NCBI RefSeq assembly: GCF_020687785.1
Contig: NZ_JAJEWI010000006.1
Span: 1 to 64,000, forward strand
Direction of reading: 5' to 3'
DNA: 64,000 nucleotides
From: Sphingopyxis yananensis
Lineage (GTDB): Bacteria; Pseudomonadota; Alphaproteobacteria; Sphingomonadales; Sphingomonadaceae
Positions 62,952-63,074 of this stretch are shown here, one piece after another. The position numbers and the translations under genes are program-made. Each line of letters opens with the position of its first letter. Within the stretch, counting starts at the first letter, position 1. Under the pieces are notes generated by a model, which was not told the origin of the DNA, did not search any database, and saw nothing but the letters and a program-made list of their open reading frames with translations.

Positions 62952-63074
62952 GAGTCGAAGTGAGTCCAAGGTCAAGAGGGTGCGACTCGTGGAGTCAGCA
63001 CGAGTCGCGCTGTAAAAAAAGAGAACGAAAAGAGTCCGACACATCATATGGAGTCTGGATCGAATCCCAGACTC
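62952..63074. promoter_or_regulatory. Cluster of nine GANTC sites upstream of ccrM
   Basis: GANTC occurs at 62952, 62962, 62984, 62992, 63002, 63032, 63051, 63062 and 63070 (first base of each). With random order about 0.5 sites would be expected in 123 bp. The distances from the first site are 10, 32, 40, 50, 80, 99, 110 and 118, close to multiples of one helical turn. The cluster lies between the divergently placed upstream end of rnhB transcription and the ccrM start, and it overlaps an AT-rich segment (63011-63031). Methylation-state control of ccrM is likely; in Caulobacter the ccrM promoter region also contains GANTC sites. Confidence 0.85.

Follow-up and report, generated by a model that had tools for sequence, protein, structure and literature searches.

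A GANTC cluster upstream of ccrM in Sphingopyxis yananensis combines a conserved promoter core with a dyad that recurs at replication origins in its family

The window analysed here is a stretch of 64,000 nucleotides from Sphingopyxis yananensis (contig NZ_JAJEWI010000006.1, positions 1 to 64,000). Towards its far end, a cluster of GANTC sites sits between rnhB and ccrM, both of which are on the minus strand. The features of the locus are as follows.

61776..62912, minus strand: ccrM, CcrM-type GANTC adenine methyltransferase, 379 amino acids (PF01555, PF18755)
62947..62975, minus strand: sigma70-type core promoter, TTGACCTTGGACTCACTTCGACTCATCAG, consisting of a -35, a 17-bp spacer and a -10
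62952..62956, minus strand: GANTC core site 2 (position -44), whose last base is the first of the -10, and which fits YGAKTCK; in 88 of 119 family rows
62962..62966, minus strand: GANTC core site 1 (position -55/-54), within the -35/-10 spacer; in 79 of 119 family rows
62982..63008, no strand assigned: GANTC dyad, GCGACTCGTG-N7-CACGAGTCGC, with three GANTC at 62984, 62992 and 63002
63023..63030, minus strand: conserved element TTTCGTTC, from the family comparison
63032..63036, minus strand: distal GANTC, position -124; in 64 of 119 family rows
63051..63055, minus strand: distal GANTC, position -143; in 94 of 119 family rows
63062..63066, minus strand: GANTC at position -154, poorly conserved; in 11 of 119 family rows
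63070..63074, minus strand: distal GANTC, position -162; in 87 of 119 family rows
63144..63731, minus strand: rnhB, ribonuclease HII, upstream of and co-directional with ccrM (PF01351)

The first-pass annotation had named the gene next to the cluster ccrM, and the domain content agrees: the product contains an N6_N4_Mtase domain (PF01555, E 2.1e-67) and a C-terminal RAMA domain (PF18755, E 3.9e-15). Its top NCBIfam match, the CcrM model NF050803, scores 600 bits against a model cut-off of 830, and the product is therefore filed as CcrM-type rather than as an NF050803 equivalog. It is a predicted GANTC methyltransferase; in a Sphingomonas, GANTC is described as the context of m6A (PMC8067484). 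The sites stay with ccrM whatever the distance to rnhB, averaging 5.7 in the 57 loci where rnhB lies within 400 bp and 6.2 in the 42 where it lies farther away. Of the other ten Sphingopyxis-type loci, nine have rnhB 1.1-2.2 kb from ccrM; the sites remain at ccrM across such distances, and the cluster was rejected as part of the rnhB end. In S. yananensis the frame of ccrM (61773-63047) runs on upstream without a stop codon across most of the cluster. An NtrC-type response regulator with receiver, sigma54-activator and Fis domains is also encoded near ccrM (59017-60564).

Recounting gives nine GANTC starts (62952, 62962, 62984, 62992, 63002, 63032, 63051, 63062 and 63070), and the originally reported offsets of 0, 10, 32, 40, 50, 80, 99, 110 and 118 within 62952-63074 are reproduced. 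The accompanying expectation of about 0.5 sites per such span was too generous: at the density of our own-genome sample (485 GANTC in 424,764 bases, or 1.14 per kb, from the window and 19 sampled stretches), it becomes 0.14. The window as a whole holds 70 GANTC against 217 expected from shuffles, so that the motif is depleted outside the cluster. With nine sites, the ccrM cluster is the densest in the 424,764 sampled bases, where the runner-up has five, and a further 120 kb of the same genome held none with more than five; at the sampled density, the genome-wide expectation for clusters this dense is about 1e-8. The runner-up (L252:3419-3534) places its five GANTC in about 116 bp over what by eye is the start of a ribD-like gene.

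The spacing of the sites had been described as close to helical phase, a claim that depends on the period chosen. Phasing at 10.5 bp, the period of B-DNA, is rejected (R=0.14, p=0.80); scanning periods of 10-11 bp gives the best fit at 10.0 bp (R=0.83; p=0.001 with the scan taken into account), which implies a drift of about half a turn across the cluster. Sites across the family fit a period of 9.8 bp best, those across the class one of 10.6 bp, though weakly, and the family's most frequent GANTC spacings are 8-11, 18-21 and 29-30 bp. The extended motif YGAKTCK is matched by four of the nine window sites. A known RNA family was rejected as an explanation, with no Rfam match in 62000-64000.

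Absence of the cluster from relatives, which the first-pass annotation had named as grounds against its reading, was not found: all 11 Sphingopyxis-type loci have 6-10 GANTC in the 250 bp upstream of ccrM. Nine is not a special number among them, since six of the 11 have nine sites and the others differ. In a family alignment of 119 rows, six positions recur, at -191 (99 rows), -162 (87), -143 (94), -124 (64), -55/-54 (79) and -44 (88). The window keeps five of these and lacks the commonest, -191 (99 of 119), so that of the four conserved positions that make up the distal array across the family three are present here. The remaining window sites, at -154, -94, -84 and -76, occur in 11, 2, 7 and 1 of the 119 rows, with the window counted. 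The nine sites as one conserved set are thus rejected, four of them being lineage-specific. There is also a second inverted repeat, 63051-63074 (GAGTCTGG-N8-CCAGACTC), again with three GANTC, the central one of which is common to only 11 of the 119 family rows.

Two of the recurrent sites lie inside a sigma70-type core promoter. Its -35 is TTGACC (62975-62970) and its -10 is CATCAG (62952-62947), a weak hexamer without the T at -7. The geometry is a TTGAC followed by one GANTC and then a second whose C is the first base of the -10. Measured from the first T of TTGAC to the C of the second GANTC, the distance is 23 nt (17-bp spacing) in 29 of 36 cores from the class, 17 of 20 from the order and 69 of 71 unique cores from the family; the search pattern permitted many spacings, which makes the concentration at one of them informative. 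An A at -11 together with a T at -7 is found in 32 of 36, 19 of 20 and 36 of 71 of the same sets. Outside the family, the core precedes ccrM in 35 of the 96 class genomes (36 cores when 12 coding bases are added to the 300 bp upstream), the other 61 lacking it, and in 20 of the 28 order loci; within the family, 69 of 107 unique loci have it. The class set was drawn from 117 genomes with any CcrM match by setting aside 2 from the own family and 19 with partial, weak or contig-edge matches; the order set was corrected from 21 of 29 by removing an own-family locus (L121), and four repeated upstream regions were removed to give the unique family loci. By comparison, only 1 of 9,600 shuffled class upstream regions has the core, and the flanks of 80 named loci (527,573 bases) have none. 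A generic sigma70 scan reports no promoter in 62700-63300, its consensus not fitting the window's -10. In the own-genome sample the core occurs at ccrM and at one other place with a different spacing, upstream of what by eye is an ftsB-like gene. There (L263:12928-12961; contig C5, about 113 kb) TTGAC-GANTC-GANTC is accompanied by three GANTC at offsets 0, 8 and 19.

Upstream of the core lies the dyad, a 27-bp inverted repeat (62982-63008) that can also be written GCGACTCG-N11-CGAGTCGC, with a GANTC in each arm. When CGANTCG-Nk-CGAN'TCG is searched with k from 3 to 25, only k=11 recurs: ten times in 120 ccrM loci, always upstream of ccrM, and three times in 30 hemE loci. Other spacers give single matches (k=12 at hemE, k=25 in the ccrM loci), and the k=11 dyad is absent from 353,763 bases of the genome's own background. 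An exact copy of the 27-mer stands before ccrM in Novosphingobium nitrogenifigens (L081), and in one locus (L027) the dyad straddles the TTGAC rather than lying upstream of it. Among 80 genomes of the genus, S. yananensis alone has the dyad at up to three mismatches. All 31 dyads that we aligned (13 from ccrM, 11 from hemE, 7 from plasmids or elsewhere) retain a GANTC in each arm. Five copies on plasmids or plasmid-like sequence, which are probably interrelated, read GAATC/GATTC instead of GACTC/GAGTC in their two arms and stay symmetrical; one hemE dyad (L335) has unequal arms. Arms that change in pairs and remain symmetrical suggest binding by a dimeric protein or formation of a cruciform.

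The stretch that the dyad takes up here holds a CtrA half-site (mostly GTTAACCA) in nine of the other ten Sphingopyxis-type loci. The first-pass annotation had listed binding of GcrA or CtrA-like regulators as a check. CtrA is encoded in the genome (80% identical match, G000:C1:563405-564073); the window has no TTAAC or GTTAA half-site in 62913-63143. Across the family the half-site occurs in 71 of the 115 loci that have a TTGAC, five of the 120 loci lacking one in the range used. Where it is present, fewer GANTC lie in the 80 bp upstream of the TTGAC (means of 1.72, n=68, versus 2.81, n=43, in unique loci; p 1e-4), and phylogenetic contrasts between half-site and GANTC number give r=-0.29 (p=0.0015). 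These comparisons suggest a modest link between loss of the half-site and gain of GANTC; in S. granuli (L036) the half-site is lost and no GANTC is gained. The dyad is found in 8 of the 44 loci without the half-site and in none of the 71 with it, the relatives counted here not being independent.

The dyad also appears away from ccrM. With up to three mismatches, the window's 27-mer occurs at six places in 397 family genomes: at ccrM here, at two hemE-ppsR intergenic regions, at two plasmid-like places and at one elsewhere. A second dyad variant occurs at ten places in ten of these genomes, three at ccrM and seven at hemE, and all seven hemE loci have a perfect DnaA box. This second pattern was picked after seeing the Novosphingobium ccrM dyads and one hemE dyad (L298, identical to L327); with that place left out, nine of nine lie at ccrM (three) or hemE (six). 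Reversed-pattern controls gave no match in either survey of the 397 genomes, and in neither did any genome have the dyad at ccrM and hemE together. The L280 place is at neither an origin nor ccrM.

In Caulobacter, hemE is part of the origin region (PMC8959179). In S. yananensis itself, the GC skew on contig C1 changes sign near 75 kb. Close to this point are hemE, at 73.8 kb, and three perfect DnaA boxes, with no others in 160 kb. This origin has a trio of GANTC, and the dyad was not found there. An element common to the origin and the ccrM promoter is seen across the family, not within this genome. Its presence at both kinds of place suggests that production of the enzyme may be tied to chromosome copying. 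Some hemE loci are extremely rich in GANTC, with 22 sites in 620 bp in one of them (L290:900-1520).

BLAST searches with dyad sequences against 72,556 plasmid records matched 7 and 8 records (15 hits), 11 in all, mainly from Sphingobium. Seven regions were fetched, chosen for the dyad; in six a replication-initiator gene ends about 1.0-2.4 kb before the site, its 3' end towards it, one such gene (in L285) being annotated as a hypothetical protein and taking its identity from its position, and the seventh (L287) carries neither annotation nor dyad. The arms are complementary in L282, L283 and L288, differ by one mismatch in L286 and are unequal in L284 and L285. RepA homology was used to sample eight further plasmid loci among 40 rows listed from 1,173 records (six sphingomonad, one Bradyrhizobium, one Thalassococcus), and these have no dyad, so that the plasmid link rests on BLAST matches chosen for it and the dyad recurs on plasmids without being universal there. 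The two plasmid-like loci (L278 and L279) have no RepA within 3 kb of sequence; they are so called because the L278 dyad and its flank are identical over 30 nt to plasmid NZ_CP060037.1. By eye, L278 also has iteron-like repeats.

The methylation-sensitive switch that was first proposed is supported in part: two GANTC lie inside a conserved core promoter, which makes control of the ccrM promoter by methylation state likely. Phasing at the B-DNA period, nine as a special number, a need for GcrA as reader and a CtrA half-site at this place are not supported. The first-pass annotation had overlooked the geometry of the promoter and the dyad found at origins as well. The account that we favour, on the strength of comparing sequences throughout and with the dyad as a minority feature, is that the cluster probably regulates ccrM, acting as an autoregulatory promoter that senses methylation, is coupled to replication and would be off when fully methylated. 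CcrM would fully methylate the region and so lower its own transcription; passage of the replication fork would leave the region hemimethylated and active until newly made CcrM restored the mark. The sign, with full methylation as off, is the least certain step. Its precedent is Caulobacter, where ccrM is described as transcribed only from the hemimethylated chromosome (PMC2217572). At the dyad, a putative dimeric protein probably binds and could couple ccrM transcription to events at the origin; in Caulobacter, it is CtrA that serves both of these targets, the origin and ccrM. A more speculative proposal, which we hold only tentatively, makes the dyad the operator of a novel dimeric sphingomonad protein that reads methylation at the origin, at ccrM and on some plasmids; such a protein might, no less tentatively, be a functional counterpart of SeqA for CcrM that in some lineages assumes the double role played by CtrA in Caulobacter.

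GcrA is reported to activate methylated promoters. The opposite sign would follow if GcrA and sigma70 RNA polymerase bound the methylated GANTC of the core and activated ccrM, a possibility that we consider rather unlikely although the genome encodes GcrA (G000:C4:108901-109551, E 7e-38) and four of the nine sites fit YGAKTCK. Such positive feedback would, on the same rather low estimate, be stopped by loss of GcrA or by proteolysis of CcrM. According to a published prediction from extended GANTC motifs, ccrM is among the core targets of GcrA throughout the class, with that control lost in part of the Caulobacterales (PMC7987155), and a group of Caulobacter cell-cycle promoters likewise has GANTC between -10 and -35 and is activated at 40-60 min (PMC4287350). 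Against GcrA as the necessary reader, 12 of the 22 class genomes lacking a GcrA match above the family cut-off have the core, compared with 23 of the 74 that have such a match (Fisher p=0.076, the wrong direction for GcrA), absence being judged by sequence search. In G113, which belongs to the 22, a weak match falls below the cut-off; leaving this genome out gives 11 of 21 and p=0.12, and hence no association between core and GcrA either way. A retest of the 22 genomes with an alignment of four sequences returned five matches (E 0.004-0.38), none of them convincing. The extended motif is found in at least one core site in 12 of 24 cores from genomes with GcrA and 7 of 12 from those without, and the number of upstream sites in class genomes does not differ with GcrA presence (means of 3.0 with and 3.4 without, p=0.37).

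It is less probable still that the dense GANTC act mainly as a decoy or occupancy sensor, holding CcrM or being shielded by CtrA-, MucR- or DnaA-like proteins; the signal would then be local hypomethylation rather than replication, which we rate as equally improbable. In Caulobacter, GANTC shielded by protein are hypomethylated, as was a synthetic promoter in which three GANTC overlie CtrA boxes (PMC5172544), and in the family 58 of 120 loci (54 of 116 unique) have a perfect DnaA box within 260 bp upstream of ccrM. Yet none of the 11 Sphingopyxis-type loci, the window included, has such a box, the upstream region in the window is also devoid of a CtrA half-site, and a decoy would not need a core of fixed geometry relative to the -35 and -10. 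A functionless cluster, left by descent or chance and helped by relaxed avoidance of GANTC in non-coding DNA, would be in keeping with the observation that in the class GANTC is rarer in genes and tolerated or favoured between them (PMC3973325). This explanation is very improbable given a density expectation of about 1e-8, a core kept across families that shuffling produced once in 9,600 trials, and a dyad specific for the k=11 spacer.

The preferred reading, autoregulation through the methylation state of the core, bears on how CcrM is timed in alphaproteobacteria where CtrA is not essential. Methylase sites fixed in the core across families, also in genomes without detectable GcrA, yield a directly testable model of autoregulation, and the dyad common to ccrM and origins offers a bait with which to seek a protein that reads GANTC methylation and ties it to replication. 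In the open-access full-text literature we found neither this architecture nor the origin-shared dyad, which may be described elsewhere.

Methylation-sensitive transcription of ccrM is already known from Caulobacter, whose promoter resembles the one described here in the gene it serves, in having GANTC in the promoter region and in being sensitive to its own methylation (PMC2217572). Unlike that CtrA-activated promoter, the present one has two GANTC in its core, an added distal array and a dyad instead of the CtrA half-site. The class-wide prediction likewise starts from extended GANTC conserved before the gene in many orders and deduces from them that ccrM is controlled by GcrA; a promoter geometry, a distal array and a dyad common to origins do not figure in section 11 of that paper (PMC7987155). 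With the methylated promoters read by GcrA and sigma70 the locus has in common GANTC within the -35/-10 spacer and a GcrA gene in the genome, but genomes in which no GcrA is detectable have its type of core just as often. SeqA binds at promoters as well as at origins. Its reading of hemimethylated origin sites in enterobacteria and Vibrio (PMC2865523) offers a likeness to a methylation-site element at the origin, here common to a cell-cycle promoter; the differences are GANTC instead of GATC, a dyad of fixed spacing and a reader protein that is putative. Finally, for the restriction-modification systems CfrBI and LlaDII, titles cited in PMC3874152 suggest that methylation at or near its own promoter controls expression of the methylase; in contrast to those methylases, the enzyme here is an orphan of the cell cycle, with many sites in front of its gene.
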